Under the pieces are notes generated by a model. That model saw only the letters and a program-made list of their open reading frames with translations, did not search any database and was not told the origin of the DNA. From positions 11,988 to 75,465 of the forward strand of contig JAFKJY010000055.1 in NCBI GenBank assembly GCA_017305835.1: a DNA stretch of 63,478 nucleotides, in the 5' to 3' direction. This stretch comes from Hyphomicrobiales bacterium (GTDB taxonomy: Bacteria > Pseudomonadota > Alphaproteobacteria > Rhizobiales > Rhizobiaceae). Positions 23,423 to 39,400 of this stretch are shown here, piece after piece. The translations under genes and the position numbers were made by a program. The stretch's first letter is position 1. The number at the start of each line of letters is the position of its first letter.

Positions 23423-24127
23423 GTGACGGACGATTTCGAAGACCATTGCTGGAAGGACGTGATCCCGCAGGACACGCTCGATCTCTATCAGGCCTACAAG
23501 CGCAAGCTCTACATCGGCAGCCGGCCGGCGATCCTGGCGATCGACCTGTACAAGCTCGCCTATCAGGGCGGGGCGCGGCCCGTCAGCGTGGTGGCGCGCG
23601 AGCATCCGGCCTCGTGCGGGATCAATGCGTGGAACGCGCTGGAGCCGACCCGGCGGCTGCTCGCCGCGGCCCGCGGCAGGAACGTCCCGATCTTCCACAC
23701 CACCGTGGACACCCGCCCGGAATCGAAGCCGCGCAACATCAAGGCGACCAACCGACCGATCAGCGAGAAGGATCTGGAGTTCTTCGAGTTCCAGGAGGAG
23801 GTCGCGCCGCGCGACGGCGAGATCGTGATCCCCAAGCAGCGCGCCAGCGGCTTCTTCGGCACGCCGCTCTCGGCGCACCTGGTCCAGCTCGGCATCGACA
23901 CCGTGATCGTGCTCGGCCAGACGACCTCGGGCTGCGTCCGCGCCTCCACCGTGGACGGCTTCTCGCAGGGCTTCCACATGGTCATGGCCGAGGAGTGCTG
24001 CTTCGACCGCAGCGACATATCCCACAAGGTCTGCCTCTTCGACCTGCATCACAAATATGCCGACGTGATGCGCACGGCCGAGATCGTCGGCCACCTCGAA
24101 AACACCTCTGTGGAGAGAGCGGCATGA
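23423..24127 (+). CDS. Isochorismatase-family cysteine hydrolase
   Basis: 234 aa. The catalytic triad of the family is visible: Asp in AILAIDLYK, Lys in VIPKQRASGF and Cys in QTTSGCVRAS. N-carbamoylsarcosine amidase, ureidoacrylate hydrolase RutB and nicotinamidase share this fold and hydrolyse amides or ureides. The GTG start has GAGG upstream. Its stop overlaps the ATG of the next gene (4 bases), so the two are coupled, which favours a ureide or amide substrate. Confidence 0.85.
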   Translation: MTDDFEDHCWKDVIPQDTLDLYQAYKRKLYIGSRPAILAIDLYKLAYQGGARPVSVVAREHPASCGINAWNALEPTRRLLAAARGRNVPIFHTTVDTRPESKPRNIKATNRPISEKDLEFFEFQEEVAPRDGEIVIPKQRASGFFGTPLSAHLVQLGIDTVIVLGQTTSGCVRASTVDGFSQGFHMVMAEECCFDRSDISHKVCLFDLHHKYADVMRTAEIVGHLENTSVERAA

Positions 24128-25011
24128 AGCCCGCCCGCTACGGCCCGTTCCCCTATTCGCCGATCGTCGACCGCCCCAGGAAGCGCTGGCCGAACGGCGC
24201 GCGCGTCGCGCTCTGGATCGTGCCCAACATCGAGATCTTCGCGCTCGACGAGGAGGTGCCCAAGGAGGCGGGCGGCAGCGGCAAGGCGCCGGCCATCATG
24301 AACTGGGCGACCCGCGACTACGGCAACCGGGTCGGCCTGTTCCGGATGTTCGACGTGCTCGACGCGCACAAGCTCCGCGGCACCGTCGCCCTCAACAGCG
24401 AGATCTGCGACCGCCACCCGCGCATCATCGAGGAGTGCCTGAAGCGCGACTGGGAGCTGATGGGCCACAACGAAAGCAATACCCGCCGGCTGGACCACGC
24501 CAAGGACGGCGAAGACGCCGCGATCGTACGCCGCACCGTCGCCACCATCGGCAAGGCGTCGGGCCGACCCGTCCAGGGCTGGCTGAGCTCGGGACTGGCC
24601 GAGACCTGGAACACGCTCGACCATCTGGTCGACAACGGCGTGCGGTATGTCGCGGACTGGGTGAACGACGACCAGCCCTACGCGATGACGCTGGACGACG
24701 GCCGCGAGATCATGTCGGTGCCTTATACGGCCGACCTCAACGACAAGGTCGCCTTCGAGCTGCGCAACTGCATGCCGGAGCAGTTCGAGGCGATGATCCG
24801 CGCGCAGTTCGACGTGCTGTGGCGCGAGGGTGCCGAGCAGGCGCGGGTGATGTGCATCGCGCTGCACCCATACCTGATCGGGCAGCCCTACCGGATCGGC
24901 GCGCTCGACCAGGCGCTCGGCTACATCCTCCGGCACGAGGGCGTGTGGGCGGCGACGGGCGCCGAGATCGCGGCCGAAGGCCGCAGGCTCCTGAAAGACG
25001 GAGCGAGCTAG
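24124..25011 (+). CDS. Polysaccharide deacetylase-fold hydrolase (PuuE/allantoinase-like)
   Basis: 295 aa. RYGPFPYSPIVDRP at the N-terminus and the helix-strand pattern up to NSEICDRHP are like the PuuE-type allantoinase branch of the NodB fold. IALHPYLIGQPYRI near the end carries a conserved histidine. There is no signal peptide, so it is a cytosolic hydrolase, unlike cell-wall deacetylases. It is translationally coupled to the isochorismatase-family gene, consistent with successive amide-bond hydrolyses. Confidence 0.82.
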   Translation: MKPARYGPFPYSPIVDRPRKRWPNGARVALWIVPNIEIFALDEEVPKEAGGSGKAPAIMNWATRDYGNRVGLFRMFDVLDAHKLRGTVALNSEICDRHPRIIEECLKRDWELMGHNESNTRRLDHAKDGEDAAIVRRTVATIGKASGRPVQGWLSSGLAETWNTLDHLVDNGVRYVADWVNDDQPYAMTLDDGREIMSVPYTADLNDKVAFELRNCMPEQFEAMIRAQFDVLWREGAEQARVMCIALHPYLIGQPYRIGALDQALGYILRHEGVWAATGAEIAAEGRRLLKDGAS

Positions 25012-25164
25012 CCCGGCAGGCACGTGCGGCCGCCGCCGTCGGCGGCGCGATCGGAAATCGAACGGGAGCCGCCCCGTGCGGGCGGCGCCGGGTCCGGCTT
25101 TGTGCGCCGTCATGCGCGGGCGGCCCGGCGGGATGAGCCAATTCAGCGAGACTGTGGGAGGAAC

Positions 25165-25893
25165 ATGGTCCGGCAGCAACCCTCTGGCAGCGTCGTCGTC
25201 ACCGGCGCGGGAAGCGGCATCGGCCTTGCGACGGTCCGGCTGCTGCTGGCGGCGGGCCGTCACGTGCTGGCCTGGGACCGCGATCTCGCCGGCCTGACCG
25301 GGCTCGACGACCGCAGGCTGCTCGCCGAGCGCCTCGACGTGCGTGACCGCGCGGCGATGGACGGTGCCCTGGCGGCTGCTGGGGGACGGTTCCCGCCGGT
25401 GGCCGGACTGGTCGCCTGCGCGGCGATCTTCCACCGCAAGCCCTTCCTCGATCTCGACGAGGCGAGCTGGGACGCCCACTTCGCGGTCAATCTCAAGGGC
25501 TCGCTGCTGGCCTGCCAGGCGGTGCTGCCGGGCATGCGCCGCCGCCGCGCGGGCAGCATCGTGCTGATGTCGTCGACGCTCGCCCGCACCGGCTCGCCCA
25601 CAGGCGCCCACTATGCCGCCACCAAGGGCGCGATCCTCGGCCTGGCGCGCTCGCTGTCGCTCGAGGTCGCGCGCGAGGGCATCCGCGTGAACGTCGTCTC
25701 GCCGGGGCTCACCGACACGCCGCAGCCGCGCGGTCACGGGCCGGAGGAGGAGCTGCTGGCGCGGGCGCGCAAGCTGCCGATGGGCCGCATGGCGCAACCG
25801 CAGGAGATCGCCGAGGCAGCCCTGTTCCTGCTCGGGCCGGAGAGCTCGTTCGTGACCGGGCAGGACCTCGCCGTGAATGGGGGCCTGCTGTGA
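25165..25893 (+). CDS. Short-chain dehydrogenase/reductase
   Basis: 242 aa. TGAGSGIG for cofactor binding, an altered ACAA at the NNAG position, MSSTLA with the active-site serine and YAATK with Tyr/Lys. GGGAGGA precedes the ATG at 25165, about 153 bases after the deacetylase; I see no gene in that short gap. The stop overlaps the GTG start of the following SDR. Confidence 0.87.
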   Translation: MVRQQPSGSVVVTGAGSGIGLATVRLLLAAGRHVLAWDRDLAGLTGLDDRRLLAERLDVRDRAAMDGALAAAGGRFPPVAGLVACAAIFHRKPFLDLDEASWDAHFAVNLKGSLLACQAVLPGMRRRRAGSIVLMSSTLARTGSPTGAHYAATKGAILGLARSLSLEVAREGIRVNVVSPGLTDTPQPRGHGPEEELLARARKLPMGRMAQPQEIAEAALFLLGPESSFVTGQDLAVNGGLL

Positions 25894-26642
25894 GCCCCGT
25901 CCGCCGCACCATCGTCGTCACCGGCGCCGCCAGCGGCATCGGGCTCGCCACGGCCCGGCGCATGGCCGCGACCATGAACGTCGTCCTGGCCGACATTGAT
26001 GCGCCGGGCGCCGGGGCTGCCGCCGACGCGCTGAAGGCCGGCGGCGCGGTGGCGGTCGGCGTCGGTGTGGACGTCACCGACCGCGCTTCGGTGCTGGCGA
26101 TGATGGAGGCTGCGCGCGCGGTCTTCGGCCCGGTCCACGCGCTGTTCAACAATGCCGGCGTCTCGCAGTCCGGCGCCACTGCCGATCTCGACGAGGCCGA
26201 ATGGGACCGGGTGGTGAACACTCATGTGAAAGGCGCATTTCTCTGCGCGCAGGCGGCCCTGCCGGACATGATCGCGCAGGGCGGCGGCGCCATCGTCAAC
26301 ATGGCCTCCATCTACGCCGTGACGGGCATGGTCGATGGCGGCGCCTATGCCGCCGCGAAGGCCGCCATGGTCTCGCTCACCAAGTCGCTCGCGCTGGAGT
26401 TCATCGCGCAGGGCATCCGCGTCAACGCCGTCGGGCCGGGTCCGATCGATACGCCGCTGCTGCGCGCGGCGGTCGGCGACGAATGGGCCGGCTGGAAGGC
26501 CCGGCGCATCGAGCGGGTGCCGATGGGCCGCCTCGGCGCGCCGGACGAGATCGCGGCCGTGGTCGAATTCCTGATCGGCGACAAGGCCTCTTACATCACC
26601 GGCCAGCTCCTGCTCGCGGATGGCGGGCAGGTGACCTGGTGA
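25890..26642 (+). CDS. Short-chain dehydrogenase/reductase
   Basis: 250 aa with TGAASGIG, NNAG, a serine in NMASIY and the YAAAK catalytic pair. ADIDAPG suggests NAD preference. It starts with GTG overlapping the preceding SDR stop by 4 bases, so the two SDRs are translationally coupled and may act as successive steps or as a heteromer. Confidence 0.88.
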   Translation: MSPVRRTIVVTGAASGIGLATARRMAATMNVVLADIDAPGAGAAADALKAGGAVAVGVGVDVTDRASVLAMMEAARAVFGPVHALFNNAGVSQSGATADLDEAEWDRVVNTHVKGAFLCAQAALPDMIAQGGGAIVNMASIYAVTGMVDGGAYAAAKAAMVSLTKSLALEFIAQGIRVNAVGPGPIDTPLLRAAVGDEWAGWKARRIERVPMGRLGAPDEIAAVVEFLIGDKASYITGQLLLADGGQVTW

Positions 26643-26670
26643 ACCGGGAATCCAAGGAAGGAGCACACGC

Positions 26671-27729
26671 ATGACGCTGCACATGGGAGTCTGGACGCCG
26701 CTGCCGCACACCATCAAGGCCGAGCCACGCATGGAGGCGGCGGTCGAGAGGCTGCAGCGGCGTGGGTCGGCGCAGGGGCCGGAAGACGCCTACGAATTCG
26801 CCCTCGAGGTGCTGCAGCGCGGCGAGCGGCACGGCTTCGAGATCACGCTGGTGGCCGCCCGCCATCTCGGGCCAGATCTCGACGCCTGGGTGCTCGCTTC
26901 CGCGCTGGCGGCGCGGACGTCGACCATGAAGATCATGGTCGCGGCGCATCCCGGCATCCATACGCCGCAGATGATCGCCAAGATGGCGGCATCCCTCGAC
27001 CGGATCAGCGGCGGCAGGGCCGCGATCAATGTCGTCAACGGCTGGAACGTCGACGAGTTCACCCTGTTCGGCAACGGCGCCTGGCTGCCCGAAGCAGAAG
27101 ACCGCCACCGGCGGATGGACGAGTTCGTCCAGGTGATGAAGGGCATGTGGAACGACGAGCCGCTCGATTTCGACGGCAAGTACTACCACGTCGAGAACGG
27201 CCTGATGCCGCTCAAGATCGCCGGCGACACGCCGCCCGGCCTCTATGCGACCAGCCAGTCCCCCGAGGGGATGGAGACCATCGCGCGCTATTGCGACCAC
27301 TGGTTCCTCGCCGACAAGGGTGACTTCCGCAAGTTCGACGAGACGCTCGGCTTCGTCCGCCAGCAGATCGCGGCGATGGAAAAGCTCGCCGGCGGCTTCG
27401 GGCGCAGGCTCGGCTACTGCATGAGCGCGAACGTCGTCTGCGCCGACACCGAGGACGAGGCGGTCCGGCAGGCCGAGGCGCTGGAGGAATATGGCCGCAT
27501 CCGGCGCTACAACAAGAGTGCGGCGGCCGGCGTCGGCGCCTGCCTGGTGGGCACGCCGCAGACGATCGCCGACCGCCTCAGGCGCTATGAGGACGCCGGC
27601 CTCGACCTGATGCTGTTCCAGTTCAGCCCGATGATCGAAGGTCTCGACAACTTCATCGAGAAGGTGCTGCCGCTGCTGGGCCGGGGCAGCCAGGCGACGG
27701 TCCGCGCGGCCGGTGCCGGCCGGCGCTGA
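26671..27729 (+). CDS. LLM-class flavin-dependent oxidoreductase (SsuD-like)
   Basis: 352 aa, TIM-barrel luciferase-like monooxygenase. KMAASLDRISGGRAAINVVNGW and the DGKYYHVEN region are typical of the alkanesulfonate monooxygenase / SsuD branch. It needs reduced FMN from a separate reductase, not seen here. It lies between SDR genes on the same strand with short gaps, so it probably belongs to the 23.4-28.5 kb operon. Confidence 0.87.
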   Translation: MTLHMGVWTPLPHTIKAEPRMEAAVERLQRRGSAQGPEDAYEFALEVLQRGERHGFEITLVAARHLGPDLDAWVLASALAARTSTMKIMVAAHPGIHTPQMIAKMAASLDRISGGRAAINVVNGWNVDEFTLFGNGAWLPEAEDRHRRMDEFVQVMKGMWNDEPLDFDGKYYHVENGLMPLKIAGDTPPGLYATSQSPEGMETIARYCDHWFLADKGDFRKFDETLGFVRQQIAAMEKLAGGFGRRLGYCMSANVVCADTEDEAVRQAEALEEYGRIRRYNKSAAAGVGACLVGTPQTIADRLRRYEDAGLDLMLFQFSPMIEGLDNFIEKVLPLLGRGSQATVRAAGAGRR

Positions 27730-27773
27730 CGCGCCGGACATCCCAAATCAGCTCATCGAGGGAGCAGGCCGAC

Positions 27774-28520
27774 ATGCAGCTCGACAACAAGGTCGCCATC
27801 GTCACCGGCGGTTCGCGCGGCATCGGCCGCGCGATCGCGCTCGCCTTCGCGAGAGAAGGCGCCGACATCGTCTTCTGCCATCTCGACGACGGCGAGATGG
27901 CGCAGAAGACCGCCGGCGACATCGCCGCGCTCGGGCGCAGGGTCCATCAGGCCTCCGTCGACCTGCGCGACCTCGATGCGCTGGCCGGCTTCATGGCGGA
28001 TGCGACCGCACGCTTTGGCGTGCCCGACATCCTCGTCAACAATGCCGGCGGCGGGATCATCCGGCCCTTCGCGGAGCTCACCCGGGATTTCTACGACGCC
28101 CAGATCGACCTCAACTTCCGGGCGGCGATCTTCGCGACGCATGCCGTCTACGGCGGCATGATCGCGCGCGGCAGCGGGCGCATCCTCAACATCGCCTCGC
28201 AGCTCGGCCTGCGCGGCGAGGCCGACATGGTGCTCTACGCCTCCGCCAAGGCCGGGATCATCGGCTTCACGCGCTCCCTGGCGCGCGACGCGGCGCAGCA
28301 CGGCGTGCTGGTCAATGCCATCGCGCCCGGCCCGACCGCGACGGAGCGCTTCCTCAGGGTGCCGCAGGCAAAGCAGGACGCGGTCAAGGCGAAGCTCTTC
28401 GTCGACCGCCTCGGCACGCCCGAGGACGTCGCCGCGACCGCCCTGCTGCTCGCCGGCCCGGGCGGCGGCTTCTATGTGGGCGCCTGCCTGTCGCCGAACG
28501 GCGGCGACGTCTTCCACTGA
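27774..28520 (+). CDS. Short-chain dehydrogenase/reductase
   Basis: 248 aa. TGGSRGIG, NNAG, ASQLG at the serine position (the catalytic Ser follows in IASQ) and YASAK. It has about 44 bases between it and the LLM gene, with GGGAG before the ATG. It is the last gene before the selenoprotein; a small GGCCCG/CGGGCC hairpin (28521-28535) follows its stop. Confidence 0.87.
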   Translation: MQLDNKVAIVTGGSRGIGRAIALAFAREGADIVFCHLDDGEMAQKTAGDIAALGRRVHQASVDLRDLDALAGFMADATARFGVPDILVNNAGGGIIRPFAELTRDFYDAQIDLNFRAAIFATHAVYGGMIARGSGRILNIASQLGLRGEADMVLYASAKAGIIGFTRSLARDAAQHGVLVNAIAPGPTATERFLRVPQAKQDAVKAKLFVDRLGTPEDVAATALLLAGPGGGFYVGACLSPNGGDVFH

Positions 28521-28548
28521 GGCCCGGATCGGGCCTACGCGTGGTATC

Positions 28549-28654
28549 GGAAAAACTGTTTTCGCGGATTGGAAAAAGCATTTGATGCCAAAGGCTTGCA
28601 GTCGGCCCGCGTGCCGGTTGCGCGGTTGACGGTCCCGCACGCCTTATCTAGCGT
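28549..28654 (+). promoter_or_regulatory. Candidate promoter region of selenoprotein gene
   Basis: The 197-bp gap is relatively AT-rich at 28549-28580, with a GAAAA/TTTTC dyad (28550-28563). TTGACG at 28626 with TAGCGT 17 bases later is a possible sigma-70 promoter, about 60 bases before the start codon. The -10 match is poor. Confidence 0.3.
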
Positions 28655-28717
28655 CATGAGAGCTTGCGCCGGCCATCTGCTGACTTGGCGCGTACGGGCG
28701 GAGCCAGGGAGGTCGAG

Positions 28718-30376
28718 ATGACCGGGAAGATCACGGTGATGGACCCGCGGGGCTATCCCCCCAAGGTCGAGGGCAAGCGTCTCGCCAGCCGGCCGCCGTC
28801 GCTCGACGGCAAGGTGCTCTACCTCATCGACGCGCTTTTCGACAATGCCGACCTGTTCGTCGAGGAGCTGCGCAAGTGGTTCGCGCAGCACATGCCGTCG
28901 GTGGAAACCCGCATCATCCGTCCCCGCGAAAGCTGGAAGGACGACGCGGAGCTGCGCGCGAAGGTGGTGGCTGACGGTGACGTCGCCATCATGGGCGTCG
29001 GCCTCTGAAGCACCTGCTGTCCCACGGTCGTGGGCTTCGCATTGGCACTGGAACAGGCCGGGATCCCGACGATCCCCGTCAGCACGCACGTCTTCGCGCG
29101 GCTGGCCAACGCCACCGCCAAGGCCGGCGGCATGCCGACGCTGCGCAACTGCTTCGTGCCGCAGCCCGTCGTCGGCCGCACCGCGGCTGAGCTGCGCGCC
29201 TATATCGAGGGCACGGACCCGGTCTCCAGGCGCCCCTTCATGCAGGGCGTCATCGACGGGCTCACCGGGCCGCTGGCCGGGGCGGACCTGGAGGGCGCGA
29301 CCTTCGAGCGCTCGACCCCGCGCTTCCTCGAGCCCGATACCGAGGAGAACCTGCAGCGGCTCTTCATCGAGAACCGCTGGACCGACATGATGCCGGTCGT
29401 CTTGCCGACCGAGGAGCGCGTCGAGGCGATGCTCAAGGGCACTTCCGTGCCCCGCGACAGGATCGTGGGGCACATGAGCCCCACCGCCTTCCGCGAAGCC
29501 TGGGCGTTCGACGTCGAGAAGATCGCGGTCAACGCCGTGATGGCGGGCGCCCGGCCCGAATATTTCCCGGTGATCCTGGCGCTGATGGCGAGCGGCGTCA
29601 CCGCGCGCAACAGCAGCACGTCGAGCTTCGCGACGATCTCGGTGGTCAACGGGCCGATCCGCGACGAGATCGGCATGGGCAGCGGCATCGGCGCCATGGG
29701 GCCGTACAACCACGCCAACGTCACCATCGGCCGCGCCTACGGCCTGTCCTGCCAGAACCTGCAGGGCGGCTCGGTCCCCGGCGAGACCTACATGGGCACG
29801 CTCGGCAACGGCCTCAACTTCTCGTCCTGCTTCGCCGAGGCCGAGGAACGCAGCCCGTGGCAGCCCTTCCACGTCGACCAGGGCTTCAGGCCCACCGACA
29901 GCACGGCCTCGGTGTTCTTCGGCGGCTGGTACACCCATTCCGGATTCGGCCCGCGCGAATCGTGGAAGGAGAAGTTCATCCGCTGCCTCACGGCGACCGA
30001 CCACTACAGCCCGCCGCTGATCGTCATGGACCCGATCGTCGCCAAGGCCTTCGCGGAACTCGGCTACACCAAGCAGACGCTGATCGAATGGTGCGCGGAG
30101 AATGCCAGGATGCCGGCGCGCGACTATTGGGACGATCAGTGGGTGTCGACAATGGTGCGCTCCTACGCCGCCGCCGGCGCCGAGCCCTATGCCAGCCGCC
30201 TCAAGGCCGCGCCGGACGAGCTGGTGACCATCTTCCGCCCGCAGGACATCAACATCGTCGTCGTGGGCGGCGAGACCCAGGGCGCGTTCAAGATGATCAG
30301 CGGGCGCTATCGCGGCGTGAACCCCTTCGCGGCCAACATGAAGAGCCCCACCGTCCTGATCGACGAATGGAGATAG
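28718..30376 (+). CDS. Selenoprotein with UxxC redox motif (UGSC-like), Sec97 encoded by in-frame TGA
   Basis: 552 residues if the TGA at 29006-29008 is read as selenocysteine. The frame is open on both sides of the single TGA and ends at TAG 30376. The residues around it are IMGVGL-Sec-STCCPT, giving a Sec97/Cys100 pair like a thioredoxin-type CxxC. AGGGAGG lies 5 bases before the ATG. The first 120 residues resemble the UGSC (seleno)protein family as I recall it. The rest, with GHMSPTAFREAWAFD, GAMGPYNHANVTIGRAYG and a final SGRYRGVNPFA, I cannot name. No signal peptide or membrane helix, so it is cytosolic. A complete Sec machinery follows immediately. A nonsense mutation is the alternative, but the SECIS-like hairpin and the context argue against it. 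Activity is presumably redox. Confidence 0.9.
29006..29034 (+). promoter_or_regulatory. TGA(Sec) codon and SECIS-like stem-loop
   Basis: After the TGA, CCCAC (29021-29025) and GTGGG (29030-29034) form a perfect 5-bp stem with a GGTC loop. The GGU of the loop lies 18-20 bases after the TGA; in E. coli fdhF the loop GGU lies at 19-21. Bacterial SelB reads this loop to deliver Sec-tRNA. Confidence 0.85.
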
Positions 30377-30462
30377 AGAGCGAGCCCTCGCGTCCAGATG
30401 GCCGATTGCACTCCGAAGTCGGGGTAATCAGCCTCGCAACAGTATCCACTAGGCGTCCAGCT

Positions 30463-30477
30463 TTCGCGAATCGCGAA
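30463..30477. promoter_or_regulatory. TTCGCG-AAT-CGCGAA palindrome upstream of selD
   Basis: This is a perfect 6-bp dyad in the 231-bp gap between selenoprotein and selD, which has no gene otherwise. A related TTTTCGCG occurs upstream of the selenoprotein at 28559. It may be an operator for selD-selC transcription; this is speculative. Confidence 0.35.
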
Positions 30478-30607
30478 GACCATTTTTCCCGCAGGCCGGT
30501 TTATGCCGCCGCCTGCGCCGTGCTTCATGTGGCAAGCCGAACGACGGACCGGGAGAGCAAATCATGGACCGCATGGAGCATCCGGCCGCCCACGCCGGAC
30601 CCGTTCG

Positions 30608-31678
30608 ATGAACGCGCCCCTCGCGCAGCCGGACCGAGCGCCGGCCTTCCGGCTGACCGACCTCGCCCATGGCGGCGGCTGCGGATGCAAGCTGGCGCCG
30701 TCGGTGCTGCAGGACTTGCTCGCGGGCCAGCCCGCCACGGCCGGCTTTCCCGACCTGCTCGTCGGCACCGAGACCGGGGATGACGCCGCCGCGTTCCGCA
30801 TCGAGGGCGACCGCTGCATCATCGCCACCACCGACTTCTTCATGCCCATCGTCGACGATCCGCACGATTTCGGGCGGATCGCGGCCACCAACGCCATCTC
30901 CGACGTCTATGCCATGGGCGGGCGGCCGCTGATGGCGCTGGCCATCCTCGGCATGCCGGTCGGCAGGATCGCGCCGGAAACGATACGCGGCATCCTCGCG
31001 GGCGGAGCCTCGGTCTGCGCCGAGGCCGGCATCCCGGTCGCCGGCGGCCATTCCATCGACGCGCCCGAGCCGATCTACGGGCTCGCCGTGATCGGCATCT
31101 GCCCGGTCGGAAATTTGCGGCGCAACTCCGAGGCGCGCGCGGGCGACGCGCTGATCCTCACCAAGCCGCTCGGCGTCGGCATCTATTCCTCCGCCTTCAA
31201 GAAGCGCGAACTGGGCGTTCAGGCTTATGACGAGCTGATCGCGACCACGACGCGACTGAACGCGATCGGGGCCGACCTCGCCGGGAATCCGGACGTCCAC
31301 GCCATGACCGACGTCACCGGCTTCGGCATCCTCGGCCACGGCCTCGAGATGGCGCGCGGCTCCGGGCTGCGCCTGACGATCGACCGGAGCGCGCTGCCGT
31401 TGCTGAGCGAAGCCGCTTCGCTCGCCCAGGCCGGCTGCGTCACCGGCGCATCGCAGCGAAACTGGACGAGCTATGGCCACGAGGTCGCGCTGCCGGAAGG
31501 CATGGCCGAATGGCAGCGCCACCTGCTCGCCGACCCGCAGACCTCCGGTGGCCTCCTTGTCGCGGTGGCGCCGGCCAGCGCCGGCCGCATCCTCGACCGC
31601 ATCAGGGCTGCCGGCCATCCGGCCGCGGCCGTCATCGGAAGCGTGAGCCGGGACGTCCCCGGCATCACCGTCGTCTGA
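30608..31678 (+). CDS. selD: Selenide, water dikinase (selenophosphate synthetase)
   Basis: 356 aa, normal length. It makes selenophosphate from selenide and ATP, the selenium donor for SelA. HGGGCGCK carries the catalytic Cys25 and Lys28 (equivalent to Cys17 and Lys20 in E. coli), so this is the cysteine form, not a selenoprotein form. GDDAAAFRI and [11 protein letters not shown] with its metal-binding aspartates follow, then [14 protein letters not shown]. The ATG at 30608 gives the family N-terminus; longer in-frame starts add unrelated residues. It heads selD-trxB-like-selA-selB-selC on one strand. Confidence 0.95.
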
Positions 31679-31692
31679 CCAGGGATTTCACC

Positions 31693-32628
31693 ATGACACA
31701 GCAGATCGACGTCGCCGTCATCGGAGCGGGAATCGCGGGGCTCAGCGCCGCGCTGACGCTTGGGCGGCTCGGCCGCAGCGTGGTGCTGCTGTCCGACGGC
31801 GTGCCGGGCGGCGAGCTGCTCAAGATCGAACGGATCGACGGCGTTCCCGGCCACGCGGAGGGCGTCGCCGGCTACGATCTCTGCCCGACCGTGCAGGAGC
31901 AGGCCGAGGCGCTCGGCGTCCGGCTCCTCGACGTCCCCGCCTCGGCGGTCGCCGCGCAGGACGACGGATGGCTGGTTTCGAGCGATGCCGGCGACCACCT
32001 CGCGCGTGCTGTCGTCGTCGCCACCGGCACCGTCATGGCCAGGCTCGGCGTGCCCGGCGAGGAGCGCCTCGAAGGCAAGGGTGTCAGCGACTGCGCGAGC
32101 TGCGACGGCCCGCTCCTGCGGGGCAAGACCGCCGTGGTGGCCGGCGGCGGGGATTCCGCCATGCAGGAAGCGCTGGTGCTCGCCGATCACGCCGCGAAGG
32201 TCTTCATGCTGGTGCGCGACGACCAGCTCCACGGCCAGGCGAGCTACAGGGACCTCGTCCTCGGCAACCCGAGGATCGAGGTACGCTACGGCAGCATCCC
32301 CGTCGAGATCCTCGGCGGCGACCACGTCACCCATGTCAGGGCGAGGAGCCTTGCGTCCGGCGCCGAGGAGGACATCGCGGCCGATGCGATCTTCACCTTC
32401 GTCGGCCTCGTGCCGAACACCTCCGTCGTCGAGGGACTGGTCCCGCTCGGCGGCACGGGCCGCATCGCTGTCGACCCTGCCATGCGCACGAAGGCCAGAG
32501 GGATCTGCGCCGCGGGCAATGTGCGCGAGGGCTCGCCGCACCGGGCCGCCGGCGGCATGGGCGATGCGGCAGCCGCGGCGGTCGCCATCGACGCCTATCT
32601 CGCGACCGGCGACTGGCCGGCCGCATAG
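31693..32628 (+). CDS. Thioredoxin reductase-like flavoprotein in the sel operon
   Basis: 311 aa, about the size of bacterial Trx[12 protein letters not shown] binds FAD, Cys134-Ala-Ser-Cys137 followed by DGP is the redox-active pair, [11 protein letters not shown] is the NADPH-binding motif and a [19 protein letters not shown] stretch replaces the usual C-terminal GDV motif. It sits 14 bases after selD and 41 before selA, so it is certainly co-transcribed. It could reduce the Sec97-Cys100 pair of the upstream selenoprotein or supply selenide for SelD. NAD(P)H preference is uncertain, since the GxGxxA-following region lacks the usual arginines that I would look for. Confidence 0.88.
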
Positions 32629-32669
32629 GGCCGGACGGGATCGCCGCCGTGCGCGGGGAGAAAAAAGAG

Positions 32670-34043
32670 ATGCCGGTACGCCGCGACCTGCCCTCGGTCG
32701 ACGCCGTGCTGCGCTCGGCAGTTGGCGGGCAACTGGTCACCCGTCACGGGCATCAGGCCACGGTCGCCGCCATCCGCGCCTGCTTGGCCGAAGCGCGCGC
32801 TGGCGAGGAGCACGGCCTTTCCGCCGAGGCTGCCGCGGACCGCGTCGGCCGGGCGCTCGACGCATCGAACGCGCCTCGTCTGAAGACCGTCTTCAATCTC
32901 ACCGGCACGGTGCTGCACACCAATCTCGGCCGCGCGCTGCTGGCGCGCAGCGCCGCCGAAGCGGCCGCCGCCGCGATGATCCATCCGGTCGCGCTCGAAT
33001 TCGACGTGGAGCGAGGCGGGCGCGGGAAGCGCGACGACCTCGTCCGCGACCTGCTGTGCGAGCTGACCGGCGCCGAGGACGCGACGTTGGTCAACAACAA
33101 CGCGGCGGCCGTGCTCCTCGTACTCAACACGCTTGCCGCCGGAAAGGGGGCGATCGTCTCGCGCGGCGAACTGATCGAGATCGGCGGCGCCTTCCGGTTG
33201 CCGCAGATCATGCAGAGCGCCGGCGCCCGATTGGTCGAGGTCGGCACCACCAACCGCACCCACAGGCGTGACTACGAGGACGCCATCGACGCCGAAACCG
33301 GCCTGCTGCTCAAGGTCCACACCTCCAACTACCGGATCGAAGGCTTCACCGCGGCTGTGCCGATGCGCGACCTCGCGGCACTCGCCCACCCCCGCGACAT
33401 CCCGCTCGTCGAGGATCTCGGCTCCGGCACACTGGCCGACCTCGGGCGCTTCGGCCTGCCTACCGAGCCGACGGTGGCCGAATCGGTGGCGGCCGGCGCC
33501 GACCTCGTCACCTTTTCCGGCGACAAGCTGCTCGGCGGTCCGCAGGCCGGCTTCATCGTCGGCCGCGAGGCGCTGATCGAAAGGATAAACCGCAACCCGA
33601 TGAAGCGCGCGCTGAGGATCGACAAGATCCGCCTCGCGGCCATCGAGGAGACTCTGCGGCTCTACCGCGACCCGGACCGGCTGGCCACGACGCTGCCGAC
33701 CTTCCGCCTGCTGGCGCGCGGCAAGCCGGAGATCGAGGCCGCCGCCAGGCGGCTCGCGCCGAAGCTCGCCGAACTCCTCGGCACGGAGGTACATGTCGCG
33801 GTCTCAGACTGCGCCAGCCAGGTGGGCTCCGGCGCGGTGCCGGGTGAGACGCTGCCGAGCGCCGGCCTCGCCCTGCGGCCGCGCGCGCCGGGCGGCGGCG
33901 CGGTGGAGGCGCTGGCCGCCCGCCTGCGCGCCCTGCCGATGCCGGTGATCGGGCGCATCTCCGGCGGTGCGGTCCTGCTCGACCTGCGCTGCCTCGAGGA
34001 CGAGGACGGCTTCCTCGCCAATTTCCAGGGTGGCGGCGCATGA
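32670..34043 (+). CDS. selA: L-seryl-tRNA(Sec) selenium transferase
   Basis: 457 aa, normal SelA length. It converts Ser-tRNA(Sec) to Sec-tRNA(Sec) with selenophosphate, as a large PLP-dependent ring oligomer. LPSVDAVL at the N-terminus, [26 protein letters not shown] and [13 protein letters not shown] are diagnostic; Lys286 of SGDK is the PLP Schiff-base lysine (295 in E. coli). The ATG at 32670 has GGGGAG 9 bases upstream. Its TGA overlaps the selB ATG in ATGA, so the two are translationally coupled. Confidence 0.96.
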
Positions 34044-36112
34044 TCATCGGCACCGCCGGCCACATCGACCACGGCAAGACGGCGCTGGTGAAGGCGCTGA
34101 CGGGGGTCGACGCCGACAGGCTGCGCGAGGAGAAGGAGCGTGGCATCACCATCGATCTCGGCTTCGCCTATCTGCCCGTCGGCGACGGCTGCATCCTCGG
34201 CTTCGTCGACGTGCCGGGGCACGACCGCTTCGTGCGCAACATGCTGGCGGGCGCCACCGGCATCGACTTCGTGCTGCTGGTCGTGGCTGCGGACGACGGG
34301 GTGATGCCGCAGACGCGCGAGCATCTCGACATCGTCACCCTGCTGGGGCTGACGCGGGGCGCCGTGGCGCTGACCAAGGCCGACCTCGTCCCGCCCGCGC
34401 GCCTGGCCGAAGTCGCGGGAGAGGTCGAAACGCTTTGCCACGGAACGCCGTTCGCCGGCACCCGGATGTTCCCGGTCTCCCCGGTGACCGGCGAGGGCGT
34501 GGAGGCGCTGCGCGACGCGCTCGCCGCCGCGGCGCGGTCCTTCTCGCCCCGCGGCGAAGAAGGGCTGTTCCGGCTGGCGGTCGACCGCTGCTTCAGCATC
34601 CGCGGCGCCGGCACGGTGGTCACCGGCGCCGTTCTGTCGGGCAGCGTTTCCGTCGGCGACGGCGTGACCGTCAGCCCCTCCGGCCTGCGGGCGCGGGTGC
34701 GCGGCATCCATGCGCAGAACCGCGCCGTGGCGCGCGGGCAGGTGGGCGAGCGCTGCGCCCTCAACCTCGTCGGCGACGGGGTCGGCGTGCAGGCCATCGG
34801 CCGCGGCGACGTCGTGCTGGACGCCGCCGCGCATGCGCCGGCGAGCCGTATCGACGCCGAATTGCGGCTGCTCGCCGGCGAGCCGCGCGCGCTGGCGCAC
34901 TGGACGCCTGTCCGCCTTCACCACGCCGCGGCGGAGGTCGGCGCGCGCGCCGCGCTGCTGCAGGAGGGTCCGATCGTGCCGGGCGCGACCGGCCGCGTGC
35001 AGCTCGTGCTGGAAAGGCCGGTCGCGGCGGCGGTCGGCGACCGCTTCGTCATCCGCGACACCTCCGGCGCGCGCACCATGGGCGGCGGCCGTTTCCTCGA
35101 CCTGCGTGGGCCCGACAGGCGCCGGCGGAGTACAGCGCGCCTCGCCCAGCTCGATGCATTGTCGCGCGAAAGCCTGGCCGATGTGCTGGCCGGACTGCTC
35201 GACCTGCCGCCCTTCGCCGTGGACGTCGCGGCCTTCGCCCGCGACCGCGCGCTCGGCCTGGAGCTGCGGGACCTTCTGGCCCGCGTGCCGCATGTCCGGG
35301 CAAGCTCGGACGGGCACGATCTCGCTTTCTCCCCGGCAACCTGGAAAACCCTTTCGGAAAGCGCGCGGGCGCTGCTCGAAGACCATCATCGCACCCACCC
35401 GCACCTGCTCGGCCCCGGCATCGCGTGGCTGGCTGCCCGGCTGGAGCCGCGCGTCGGCATCGGGCCCGCTTCCGTCGCGATCCGCACCCTCGTCGTGGAC
35501 GGCATGCTGGCGACGGAGGGCGGCGTGGTGCGCCTGCCCGGCCACAGGCTGGCACTCGACGGCCGCGACTACGCGCTATGGCAGCGCATCCTGCCTCTCT
35601 TTTCCGGCGAGGCCCGCTTCCGCCCGCCGCTCGGGCGCGAATGCGCGGGGCTGCTCGGCGAGCGCGAGCCGGAGGTGCGCCGGGTGCTCAAGGCGATGGC
35701 CAGGCAGCAGCGCGTCGTCGAGCTGGCGCCGGACCGCTTCTTCCTCGACGAGGCGGTGCGGGAGATGGCAGGTATTGCCGCCGAGGTCGCAGCGGCGCGG
35801 CCGGACGGGCTGTTCTCGGCAGCCGATTTTCGCGACCGGCTGCGCAACGGCCGCAAGGTGGCGATCGAGATCCTCGAATATTTCGACCGCAGCGGGCTGA
35901 CGACGCGGCGCGGGGACCTGCGCGGCGTCGTCCCGCAGCGGATCGCGGACCACGCGCGCCGCACGAACGGAATAATGGAAGAGAATCGTCCCCGGTGGGG
36001 CGTCCGGACTTCAAATCCGGGTGGGGCTGTCAGCCAGTCCCGGGTGGGTTCGACACCCACTCTCTTCCGCCATCCCACAACCGGCCCGGCCCGTGGTCGG
36101 GACGGACGTTGA
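34040..36112 (+). CDS. selB: Selenocysteine-specific elongation factor, frame running through tRNA-Sec gene
   Basis: 690 codons as an open frame; family members are usually 610-640. SelB binds Sec-tRNA(Sec), GTP and the SECIS loop. The GTPase motifs are [23 protein letters not shown] and TKADL near residues 4-120, followed by EF-Tu-like domains and C-terminal winged helices ending with [17 protein letters not shown] at about residues 618-634. The conserved part stops just before the tRNA-Sec gene starts at codon 646; no stop codon occurs until 36110-36112, 38 bases past the tRNA CCA. The last 45 codons are therefore tRNA sequence plus spacer. Confidence 0.93.
35977..36072 (+). tRNA. selC: tRNA-Sec (anticodon UCA)
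   Basis: 96 bases with an 8-bp acceptor stem (GGAAGAGA with TCTCTTCC), discriminator G and encoded CCA. The anticodon loop CTTCAAA has TCA at 36011-36013. A long variable arm, a TTCGACA T-loop and a GGT-type D-loop match the E. coli selC pattern closely. It lies inside the 3' end of the selB reading frame, sense orientation, so its maturation by RNase P would cut the selB transcript. Presumably it is the only Sec-decoding tRNA. Confidence 0.97.
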
Positions 36113-36144
36113 AGCGGGTCGGCCAAGCTGTCAGTGTGAACGCT

Positions 36145-37053
36145 ATGCCCATGCTGACGGACATCAAGGCATTCCTGGCGAGCGCCCGCACGGGCGGGTT
36201 CTCGGGCGCGGCGCGCGAACTCGGAACCACGCCGTCCGTCATCTCCAAGCGGGTCGGGCGCCTCGAGGACGAGATCGGCGCCAAGCTGTTCCTGCGCACC
36301 ACGCGGGCCCTGACGCTGACGGCGGAGGGCGAGCGCCTGCAGCCGCGGCTGCTGCAGCTGACGGCCGAGCTCGACGACACGCTGTACGACCGCGAAAGCT
36401 CCGGCCTGCGCGGCACGCTGCGCGTGCGCGCGCCTTCCACCTTCGGGACCTTCTTCGTCGGCCCCTCGGTCAACCGGTTCCAGGCCAGGCACCCGGACAT
36501 GACGATCGAGCTGCTGCTGATCGACCGCCCCGTCAATCCGCTGGAGGAGGGCTTCGACGTCTCGCTCGGCGCGCTGCCGCAATCCTTCAACGGCGTGATC
36601 GAGATCCCGTTCTGCCCCTACCGCAGGCTGCTCGTCGGCGCGCCGCGCTACCTCGAACGGCGCGGTACGCCGCAGATCCCGGCTGACGTCTTCGCCCATG
36701 ACTGCCTCGTCTTCGCCCCGTCGGGGCACACATGGACCTTCGGCGCGCCCGGCGGCCCGCTGTCGCTCGACATTCGCCCGCGCTACACGGTCAACGACAG
36801 CTACATCCTGGTGGACGCGGCCATGCAGGGGCTGGGGCTCGCCGCCGTGCCGGAATTCCTGGCGCGCCGGCCGATCGCGGAGGGCAGGCTGGCCGCCCTG
36901 CTGCCGGACTTCCCGCTCGTGCCGCTGTCGTTCAAGGCGATGGTGCCCCGTCACAAGTCGAGGCGGCCCGAGGTGGTCGCGCTGATCGAGCACATCAGGC
37001 AGGAATTCGATCCGCCGCCCTGGGACGACCACGTCCCGGTCTGGTTCGCCTGA
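36145..37053 (+). CDS. LysR-family transcriptional regulator
   Basis: 302 aa, normal length. The helix-turn-helix is SGAARELGTTPSVISKRVGR near residues 21-40, followed by LEDEIGAKLFLRTTRALTLT. The effector domain ends with VPLSFKAMVPRHKSRRPEV. It begins 72 bases after the tRNA-Sec CCA, on the same strand, and converges on a TetR gene. Its target is not evident; the sel locus, TetR or Ldi-like genes are all possible. Confidence 0.88.
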   Translation: MPMLTDIKAFLASARTGGFSGAARELGTTPSVISKRVGRLEDEIGAKLFLRTTRALTLTAEGERLQPRLLQLTAELDDTLYDRESSGLRGTLRVRAPSTFGTFFVGPSVNRFQARHPDMTIELLLIDRPVNPLEEGFDVSLGALPQSFNGVIEIPFCPYRRLLVGAPRYLERRGTPQIPADVFAHDCLVFAPSGHTWTFGAPGGPLSLDIRPRYTVNDSYILVDAAMQGLGLAAVPEFLARRPIAEGRLAALLPDFPLVPLSFKAMVPRHKSRRPEVVALIEHIRQEFDPPPWDDHVPVWFA

Positions 37054-37082
37054 AGCCGGTCCCGCCCGGCATGCGGCCCGGC

Positions 37083-37727
37083 CTAGGGGAGATCGAGCGG
37101 CAGGCGGCTGATGCGCCGCGCCTCCTCCTCCGCCATCCCGAGCGCCGAGAGGATCAGCTTGCACAGCGATTCGACGTAATCCGGCGGCCGCGTGTCGGAA
37201 AGCAGCGCCCGCAGCCCGGTGCGGACCGTGCCGACGACAAGGTCGCTGGCGCTGGTGAGGTCGTCGAAGGCGAAGCGGCCGGCGGCGCGGCCAAGCATGA
37301 GGTCCGGCCGCGGATAGGCCTTCAGGTCCTCGTTGACGGTCCTGCGGTCGGCCGACATCGCCACGATCAGCCAGCCCAGCGTGGCGTCGCGGCGCGCCCG
37401 GTGCATGACGCTGCGGGTCACCGCGGCCAGCCGCTCGGCCGGATCGGCGAAGATCGCGCAGGCCGCCTGGATGTCCCGGAACGGATCGCGGCCGACCCGC
37501 TCCCACAGCGCCTCCAGCAGATCCTCGCGCATGGAGAAGTGGTTGTAGAAGGTGCCGCGCGAGACGTCCGCCTCGGCGATGAAATCGTCGATCGTGGCGC
37601 GCGCCATTCCGTGATGGGCGATCGCGCGGGCGCCGGCTTCCATCAGCCGCTGACGCATCCGCGCACGCCGCTGCTGGCCGATCTCCGCCCGCGTCCTGCG
37701 CGGTTCCGCCTTGCCGGGCTGCTCCAT
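37083..37727 (-). CDS. TetR-family transcriptional regulator
   Basis: About 214 aa from the ATG at 37727; an upstream GTG-type frame start to 37793 would run across the operator. The DNA-binding domain is ATIDDFIAEADVSRGTFYNH followed by FSMREDLLEAL near residues 46-75. The C-terminal ligand domain is not assignable. It is divergent from the linalool-dehydratase-like gene, with an 18-bp operator-like dyad between, so it probably represses both. Confidence 0.87.
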   Translation of the reverse strand: MEQPGKAEPRRTRAEIGQQRRARMRQRLMEAGARAIAHHGMARATIDDFIAEADVSRGTFYNHFSMREDLLEALWERVGRDPFRDIQAACAIFADPAERLAAVTRSVMHRARRDATLGWLIVAMSADRRTVNEDLKAYPRPDLMLGRAAGRFAFDDLTSASDLVVGTVRTGLRALLSDTRPPDYVESLCKLILSALGMAEEEARRISRLPLDLP

Positions 37728-37740
37728 TGCGCAATCCAAA

Positions 37741-37758
37741 TTGAACAAATCTGTCCAA
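37741..37758. promoter_or_regulatory. TetR operator-like dyad
   Basis: TTGAACA-AATC-TGTCCAA, with one mismatch between arms, is centred between the divergent TetR and Ldi-like genes, 13 bases upstream of the TetR ATG. A TTGACA at 37776 could be the -35 of the plus-strand promoter. Confidence 0.55.
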
Positions 37759-37828
37759 AATGACAATTGACATGCATTTGCGGGTGCGGTCAACTCGGCA
37801 CCGGCCGCCCGTGCGAGCGGAGGAGAGC

Positions 37829-39400
37829 ATGTCGAACGTCGCCGAAGCGCATCGCGGAGCCGGCACCGCCCGGCCAGTCCCGGAGCCGGCGGCGCTGGAC
37901 GACAAGCAGGCCGGCCATCTGCGCCGCATCGTCGACCTGTCCGAGCGTCTTCCCGACGACTGGTCCGGCATGCTGGGCCGCAGCACCATGCAGGAGGATT
38001 TCGGGGCGCTGCGCTTCCAGCTCGCCTATATGGCCTACGCGCTGGCGCTGACGCATCTGCACCGGCTGCCGGCCGCGCCGGCGCTCTTCCGCAAGCCGTT
38101 CGACAGCCTGATCCAGAAGATCCTGTCGATCGACGTGTGGATGTACTGGCACTATGTCAGCACGGGCAACGTCCGCCTCAACAAGGGCGAGCTGCCGGCG
38201 CGGTGGGATCCCGTCGCCGAGGACAACATCATGTACAGCGCCTACGTCCAGTCGATGGCGCTGATGTACCATTATCTCTTCGACGACCCGAAATATGCCG
38301 GGAAGGGCGCGCTGTCCTTCAAGCTCCAGCCGCTCTTCTGGGGTAGCGGCGACAGGATATTCGCGTATGACGAGAAGTCGCTCAGCCAGCACCTCTACTG
38401 GATGATGGTCGAGAAGGGCTATCTCGGCATCGCCTGCGAGCCCAACTGCGTCTTCCAGATCTGCAACCAGCCGGCGATCCTCGGCTTCCGCCTGCACGAC
38501 CTCGTCTATGGCGGCGATCTGGCCGGCGAGGTCACCGAAGGCTACCGCAAGGCCTGGGCGGAGTTCGGCATCCGGTCCCCGGACGGCCATTTCAACATCC
38601 TGGCGCTGGAGCGCGAGCACGCGCTCGTGCAGCGCCCGCCCGCGCCCTGGGCCGATTTCTGGCTCGGCGCGCTGATGCATGCCTGGGACCCGGAAGGCGT
38701 CGAGGCGGCCTATCGCGGCCAGATGGACCATTGGAAGCGCGAGGGGCCGGACGGCACCTTGTGGATCCAGCCCTACGTGCCGTCCTCCAATGCCGAGGCG
38801 CGGTCGGGCAATGCGCTCGATTTCGGCTGGGCGGCGGTCTGCGCGTCGGAAGTGGGCGACACGGACACGCTCGAAAGGCTGCTCGCCTATGCCGATCGGT
38901 TCCTGACGCCGACCTGGGAGGACGGCGCCTATTACTATCGCCGCCGCGACGAGCCGATGCTGGACGGGCGGCCCGCCGCCATGGACCCGCACACCGGCAA
39001 CTGCCTGCTCGGCTATGCCCGGCTCAACGTTCCGGGCGGCCTGCGCAAGCTCTATGCCGGGCCGCTCGGCGCCGACTGGTTCTCGCGGCCCGCGATCGTC
39101 GACATCTCCGGCCGGCCCGACATCCGCGCCGCGCGCCACGATCCAGACACGGACGAGTTGCGCGTCGTGCTGCGGCCCGGACGCGGCGGCAGGGAGCAGG
39201 TCGGGCTTGCCGTTTCCAACGTCTGGGGGAAGGGCCGCTCATGGCGGCTCGCGGCCGACGGCGAGACCGTGGCCCGGGGCGATGGCGACGGCGTCACGGA
39301 CGCCGGCGGCCGCATCTCCGTGCAGCGCGAAGCATCGAACCTCGCCATAAGCCTGCCGCTGGACGGCGAGGTCGAGCTTCGCCTGGCCATGCAACCATGA
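37829..39400 (+). CDS. Linalool dehydratase/isomerase (Ldi) family protein
   Basis: 523 aa. The middle holds VWMYWHYVSTGN and IACEPNCVFQICNQP, giving Cys203 and Cys212 nine residues apart, the same spacing as the catalytic Cys171/Cys180 of Castellaniella LinD. TWEDGAYYYRR and the alpha/alpha-barrel-like repeats also fit this family. LinD dehydrates linalool to myrcene and isomerises geraniol in the periplasm. This protein shows no signal peptide, so it would act in the cytosol. A C-terminal beta-rich extension of about 100 residues follows. GGAGGAGA precedes the ATG at 37829. It is translationally coupled to a SCO-like gene. Family assignment comes from recalled motifs; the substrate may well not be a terpene. 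Confidence 0.65.
   Translation: MSNVAEAHRGAGTARPVPEPAALDDKQAGHLRRIVDLSERLPDDWSGMLGRSTMQEDFGALRFQLAYMAYALALTHLHRLPAAPALFRKPFDSLIQKILSIDVWMYWHYVSTGNVRLNKGELPARWDPVAEDNIMYSAYVQSMALMYHYLFDDPKYAGKGALSFKLQPLFWGSGDRIFAYDEKSLSQHLYWMMVEKGYLGIACEPNCVFQICNQPAILGFRLHDLVYGGDLAGEVTEGYRKAWAEFGIRSPDGHFNILALEREHALVQRPPAPWADFWLGALMHAWDPEGVEAAYRGQMDHWKREGPDGTLWIQPYVPSSNAEARSGNALDFGWAAVCASEVGDTDTLERLLAYADRFLTPTWEDGAYYYRRRDEPMLDGRPAAMDPHTGNCLLGYARLNVPGGLRKLYAGPLGADWFSRPAIVDISGRPDIRAARHDPDTDELRVVLRPGRGGREQVGLAVSNVWGKGRSWRLAADGETVARGDGDGVTDAGGRISVQREASNLAISLPLDGEVELRLAMQP

Follow-up and report, generated by a model that had tools for sequence, protein, structure and literature searches.

A UGSC-family selenoprotein with a regular partner domain and probable remote kinship to GrdB, encoded beside selenocysteine machinery in a Hyphomicrobiales bacterium

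The window, i.e., the whole stretch of 63,478 nucleotides of a Hyphomicrobiales genome analysed here, carries what is almost certainly a selenoprotein gene, followed on the same strand by genes for the synthesis and insertion of selenocysteine (Sec) (Table 1). A full Sec-decoding set directly downstream had been claimed in the earlier note on this DNA, and selD, selA, selB and tRNA-Sec are indeed all present; within this set also sits a thioredoxin-reductase gene (31693-32628), which that note lacked. The selB frame (34040-36112) has no stop ahead of the tRNA-Sec and reads through it (35977-36072), and a search of Rfam over 27500-38500 returned nothing besides tRNA-Sec. Upstream, on the same strand, lies a run (23423-28520) of an isochorismatase-type gene, three short-chain dehydrogenase genes and a luciferase-type monooxygenase gene, together with a gene for a 295-residue protein lacking a Pfam match at 1e-6; this run is perhaps a catabolic cluster.

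Table 1. Features of the selenoprotein locus (positions in the window)
Feature	Position	Strand	Basis
Selenoprotein gene, 552 residues with one TGA read through	28718..30376	+	UGSC domain and fused C-terminal partner domain; conserved in relatives over about the full length
UGSC domain, residues 6-162, probable remote relative of the GrdB Sec domain	28733..29203	+	Pfam PF24696; hhalign and hmmsearch to GrdB
TGA codon for Sec97	29006..29008	+	TGA in 63/86 copies, Cys codon in 23/86
Cys100, presumed resolving cysteine of U-S-T-C	29015..29017	+	Invariant in alignment A1, >=90% in alignment A4
Predicted bacterial SECIS, stem CCCAC/GTGGG, loop GGTC at 29026-29029	29021..29034	+	Loop conservation, covariation
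C-terminal partner domain, residues 201-552	29318..30373	+	No Pfam family, no clear known fold; partner of UGSC
selD, selenophosphate synthetase	30608..31678	+	AIRS and AIRS_C; start chosen by the analyst
Thioredoxin-reductase-like flavoprotein, CASC motif; proposed electron donor	31693..32628	+	Pyr_redox_2; recurrent neighbour in the subfamily
selA, selenocysteine synthase	32670..34043	+	SelA, 534.6 bits
selB, Sec-specific elongation factor	34040..36112	+	GTP_EFTU, SelB beta-barrel, winged helix
tRNA-Sec, anticodon TCA	35977..36072	+	ARAGORN; RF01852, 80.5 bits

Across 61 related genomes, weaker matches to the tRNA-Sec model (mostly about 50 bits or lower) occur in all or nearly all and are taken for putative serine tRNAs; hence, a match was counted as tRNA-Sec only above 65 bits, which left four. 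Both genomes with a TGA copy of the selenoprotein gene have such a strong match (80.5 bits in G000 and 71.5 bits in G006), and the other two (76.7 and 68.6 bits) come from genomes without a gene of this type. Two genomes with distant Cys-type copies show background-level matches only. In the five remaining genomes of the genus of G000 and G006, the gene found no match and the tRNA-Sec model no strong one. The sole other selenoprotein class checked in the host genome, the molybdopterin oxidoreductases, has 12 members, none with an internal stop, so that a Sec-containing formate dehydrogenase does not account for the Sec gene cluster.

The frame of the selenoprotein gene is interrupted solely by the TGA at codon 97, in the context GVGL-U-S-T-C-C-P (S98-T99-C100-C101-P102). 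Relatives were drawn from one genome scan (79 loci) and the search of the 61 related genomes; when L006 and L007, duplicates of L003 and L005, are removed from the 88 alignments, the remaining 86 copies have TGA (63, the present copy included) or TGC/TGT (23) at this codon, and none has anything else. Conservation continues across the TGA: 46 relatives with 49–78% identity to the protein align over about its full length (alignment A1), with residue 97 (TGA read as Cys) and residue 100 invariant. On a quick tree of 81 proteins, from which the distant L003-L005 and the second copies in L015 and L021 were left out, the Sec/Cys state amounts to one change. Two loci hold pairs of copies: a Sec copy back to back with a Cys copy on the other strand (L021:3467-7012), and a tandem pair of Sec copies with TGA in both (L015:4229-7626).

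A predicted hairpin with a GGUC loop begins 12 nt past the TGA, and this loop stands at a fixed spacing from the codon in all 63 TGA copies, as against 3 of the 23 Cys copies. In 37 distinct elements taken together, pairing within the five-pair stem holds in 93.5% of cells; its covariation score of 0.321 compares with a shuffled mean of 0.114, and none of 500 shuffles scored as high. Pairs changed on both sides number two in the same elements, no more than among the shuffles. A 55-nt piece of the locus' own RNA that includes the TGA has another minimum-energy fold without the hairpin (z = -0.46), and the same stretch without the TGA does fold into it. On these sequence grounds, a SECIS-like hairpin would follow the TGA, with its loop mostly lost where Cys takes the place of Sec.

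The 120 best of 7574 protein homologues, one of which is the entry for this very gene, are all only 414–455 residues long, as is expected if gene calls begin 3' of the TGA. It might be argued from these lengths that the TGA is an ordinary stop, separating two genes or marking a decayed one, but the absence of any codon other than TGA or Cys among the 86 copies, the GGUC loop in 63 of 63, the conservation across the codon and the adjoining Sec machinery make this highly improbable. The earlier note had read the frames 28718-29005 and 29009-30376 as one gene with Sec at the single TGA, had expected annotators to split or miscall it, and had named homologues with neither Cys nor Sec at the codon as one finding that would speak against it; the open frame, the conservation past the codon, the codon counts and the loop uphold this reading, the lengths of the best homologues fit starts after the TGA, and homologues of that kind number 0 of 86. 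That the product is a selenoprotein, belonging to the known UGSC family, is almost certain.

The Pfam UGSC model (PF24696) matches residues 6-162 with 94.5 bits, well over its cut-off of 25, whereas the NCBIfam UGSC equivalog model (NF041046) scores 70.1 bits, below its cut-off of 125, and nothing in NCBIfam other than UGSC_fam matched the protein at E up to 1. The literal UGSC/CGSC motif is absent, its place being taken by U-S-T-C, and close relatives (L002, L008-L086) have USTC, USSC, CSTC or CSNC; the likening of the N-terminal part to UGSC with a U-S-T-C motif, made beforehand from the letters alone, thus holds good. In an alignment of 57 diverse UGSC domains, the present one included (A4), only residue 97 (Sec/Cys) and F126 are invariant, with C100 kept in at least 90%. 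Predicted strands (33-38, 63-67, 89-95 and 118-123) alternate with helices, and Sec97 falls between a strand and a helix, an order that, as far as prediction goes, has a Rossmann-like pattern.

Comparison of profiles points to a remote kinship between this domain and the Sec domain of GrdB. The UGSC profile was built from A4, and the GrdB profile from five Sec-containing sequences with a T-S-T-U-G-T motif (L169-L172 and L179), selected by motif pattern from ten long GRDB loci, such that L185 (also with Sec), L173, L180, L181 and L182 were left out. With hhalign, the two profiles aligned over 71 columns with a probability of 93.9% (P 1.5e-7); Sec falls on Sec, the G-[IL]-P and later H-P stretches are in register, and the best of 26 control profiles of unrelated neighbour proteins reached 4.3%. 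A narrower profile of the protein's own subfamily gave 75.5 against GrdB, and UGSC against 21 GRDB-like proteins gave 62.9 (P 7.1e-5), with CPVC placed on USTC. When 770 mixed proteins were searched with hmmsearch, the five GrdB sequences ranked straight after UGSC (E 3.1e-7 to 9.2e-5; 1.2e-6 to 3.7e-4 with a profile built without the own subfamily). Searching in the other direction placed UGSC domains at ranks 1–19 of the best 20, with the present domain at E 6.3e-4; the entry at rank 20 carries a decoy label but is L003's UGSC gene.

The Pfam GRDB model (PF07355) does not hit the protein at an E limit of 1, is missing from the 12 families that the 47 A1 members hit at E up to 10, and has a single match, at E 0.056, in the 57 UGSC domains. 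This negative hardly tests the shared part, since the model's match stops at the residue before Sec in all four GrdB proteins checked, which may explain why the link has been missed. In L169, L172, L179, L185, L087 and L088, matches to the model likewise stop right at the Sec/Cys motif or two residues short of it, so that the catalytic motif lies outside the model. The relationship, as judged from these profiles, would thus extend over some 70 residues around the motif and be one of kinship rather than of family membership.

The rest of the protein, some 430 residues that the earlier note could not name, does lack a Pfam family (none for residues 201-552), and structure searches found no clear known fold for the C-terminal domain, but it is no arbitrary appendage. 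The 40 regions fetched and the eight survey loci contain 50 UGSC regions, and in 47 of these the C-domain is found no more than 300 bp away on the same strand, as a separate gene in either order in 34 and fused in frame in 13. When the two parts were searched for separately in ten genomes, 75 UGSC domains and 81 C-domains were found, a partner lying within 400 bp on the same strand for 69 of the 75 and 69 of the 81; the counts of the two are identical in seven of the ten genomes, including one with 21 of each, and a contig end is no more than 250 bases away from at least five of the 18 unpaired domains. These arrangements make the unassigned back part the regular partner of UGSC domains, and it is likely the 'Unknown_1' domain named in PMC2398784. 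As candidates for its relatives, GrdE (one sequence) and GrdB (five) were rejected, with hhalign probabilities below 1. PF09338, the model of the pyruvoyl partner GrdE/PrdA, has no match in the host genome, but none in the control genomes either.

Eight residues are invariant in 59 C-domains (D223, A270, G277, G312, R339, N347, E374 and G517 in the numbering of the present protein), and no Cys is. As the C-domain is the larger part of the protein and these residues could form an active site, it might be the true catalyst, with UGSC storing or transferring electrons (or selenium or a metal). We think this rather improbable: it is the UGSC domain that appears akin to a known catalytic Sec domain, and searches gave neither a Pfam family nor a clear known fold for the C-domain.

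The thioredoxin-reductase gene recurs beside relatives of the selenoprotein gene, being within 2.5 kb in 30 of 80 subfamily loci (18 with Sec and 12 with Cys main copies) and directly adjoining (up to 200 bp, same strand) in 22 of 80, counts that are lower bounds since many loci end early. It was found in none of 20 control regions. The wider UGSC regions have it in only 2 of 40 (L143 and L148, the latter being L082's copy, already counted), which makes it a trait of this subfamily. Such a neighbour, together with the UxxC motif, would also fit a thiol/selenol redox enzyme resembling thioredoxins or peroxidases, with Sec97 and Cys100 taking part in disulfide exchange or peroxide reduction and the C-domain serving only to select the partner. 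A thioredoxin-like fold has been guessed for UGSC (available part of PMC2398784), and a peroxidase activity of GrdB is reported, to go by the title of a reference cited in PMC3091704. Against this stand the predicted Rossmann-like alternation of strands and helices, which places Sec97 in between, and the large, conserved C-domain, which is devoid of a conserved Cys and yet regularly beside UGSC (69 of 75) and thereby suggests a small-molecule substrate; on balance, we regard a redox enzyme of this kind as unlikely.

In genomes drawn evenly from the same phylum, the family is rare, being present in 5 of 398, the host genome included. The genome of L082 (G481, the uncultured beta proteobacterium RBC024) has 21 UGSC paralogues, each with one TGA, and 21 partner domains. 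Over 30 genomes, 92 of 103 UGSC matches have one TGA and 11 have none; both this set and that of ten genomes were picked for a close relative of the present gene, such that their counts are no census. The neighbours gave no clue to a substrate: Pfam comparison of 134 UGSC-adjacent proteins with 126 control proteins from regions of five of the same genomes (first 25 families listed per set) revealed no clear enrichment, TctC receptors, for example, being common in both (11 of 134 and 13 of 126). In Caldilineaceae (L062-L065, L067-L070, L072-L074, L077, L078 and L083), and among the neighbourhoods compared only there, the Sec copy lies in a conserved neighbourhood with genes for two PhyH proteins, one Kelch protein and members of unassigned families.

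Our preferred reading, to which we give somewhat better than even chances on the sequence comparisons, is that the 552-residue protein is a selenoenzyme of GrdB kinship, working with a regular partner domain in the reductive cleavage of a bond in a small molecule. SelB would insert Sec at codon 97, and the C-domain, which has no conserved Cys, would bind the substrate, much as PrdA is proposed to do for PrdB. Sec97, as its selenolate, might then attack a carbon of the substrate and expel the leaving group, whereupon Cys100 would attack the selenium, releasing the reduced product and leaving a Se-S bond for the neighbouring NAD(P)H-dependent flavoprotein to reduce. A scheme of this form has been proposed for PrdB: the substrate sits on PrdA and is attacked at its alpha carbon by the PrdB selenolate, a Cys resolves the selenoether to a Se-S bond, and the flavoprotein PrdC reduces that bond with NADH, while glycine reductase is reduced by NADPH, thioredoxin reductase and thioredoxin (PMC3091704, in the text available). 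By analogy, we infer that Sec97, Cys100, the C-domain and the flavoprotein may be mapped onto the respective elements of the PrdB scheme. The many paralogues in one genome might then be versions for different substrates. More broadly, and at somewhat less than even chances, UGSC and its partner may constitute a third, unrecognised branch of the glycine/proline-reductase-type selenoenzymes in aerobic bacteria, with up to 21 versions per genome for the reductive cleavage of different small molecules, the present protein being a single-chain version with its own reductase and complete Sec machinery.

Parts of this picture have been in print for some time. The fusion of UGSC with 'Unknown_1' was reported in 2008 (PMC2398784), and few selenoprotein families are as abundant in aquatic metagenomes as UGSC (PMC2398784 and PMC9402790). 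The available parts of PMC2398784, PMC9312934 and PMC13188914 list it as a family with the redox motif UxxC and give no function. In the literature outside subscription papers and supplements, we found no statement linking UGSC to GrdB and no description of the partner domain as a regular companion of UGSC; nor did we find a report of a thioredoxin-reductase gene beside UGSC genes. Thus, the family and the fusion are known, and the probable GrdB kinship, the regular partner and the reductase neighbour are what we did not find in print. The link to a GrdB-type Sec domain, with a named partner and a likely reductase, would make UGSC a concrete system open to assay. The shortness of all the best 120 of 7574 homologues hints that truncation at the Sec codon affects many database entries, and the 21 TGA-containing UGSC genes of a single genome raise the question of why such bacteria need so much selenium chemistry.

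Set against known systems, the protein is like the UGSC family (PF24696, NF041046) and its published fusion with 'Unknown_1' in its profile match, in the Sec/Cys at the motif and in being joined to a large C-terminal domain, and unlike them in having U-S-T-C in place of U-G-S-C and in scoring under the NCBIfam equivalog cut-off. The top structural match of a model of its UGSC domain (m922c0e7803a0, residues 28-194), a borderline one, is chain H of 8s7v, from the methyl-coenzyme M reductase activation complex; going by chain length, this chain is likely Mmp7, a nitrogenase-like cluster carrier. The GRDB-like CPxC proteins of the same phylum (L087-L091), a very large family matching only the second part of GRDB, have a CPVC motif that aligns with USTC, but they are separate proteins of about 300 residues with Cys rather than Sec in those read. 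With GrdB and PrdB (PF07355 and relatives), the protein shares Sec-x-x-Cys at the same place of what appears to be a related domain. The proposed likeness would extend to a second, substrate-binding part and to reduction by NAD(P)H via a flavoprotein or thiol chain, in keeping with the mechanism in the available text of PMC3091704. It differs from them in lacking a match to the Pfam model of the part preceding Sec and in a partner domain that resembles neither the GrdB set nor the single GrdE tried. Finally, the UGSC fusion is carried by Oricola, Marinicaulis, Bradyrhizobium, Ramlibacter and others, which we take to be aerobic, rather than by classical Stickland fermenters.
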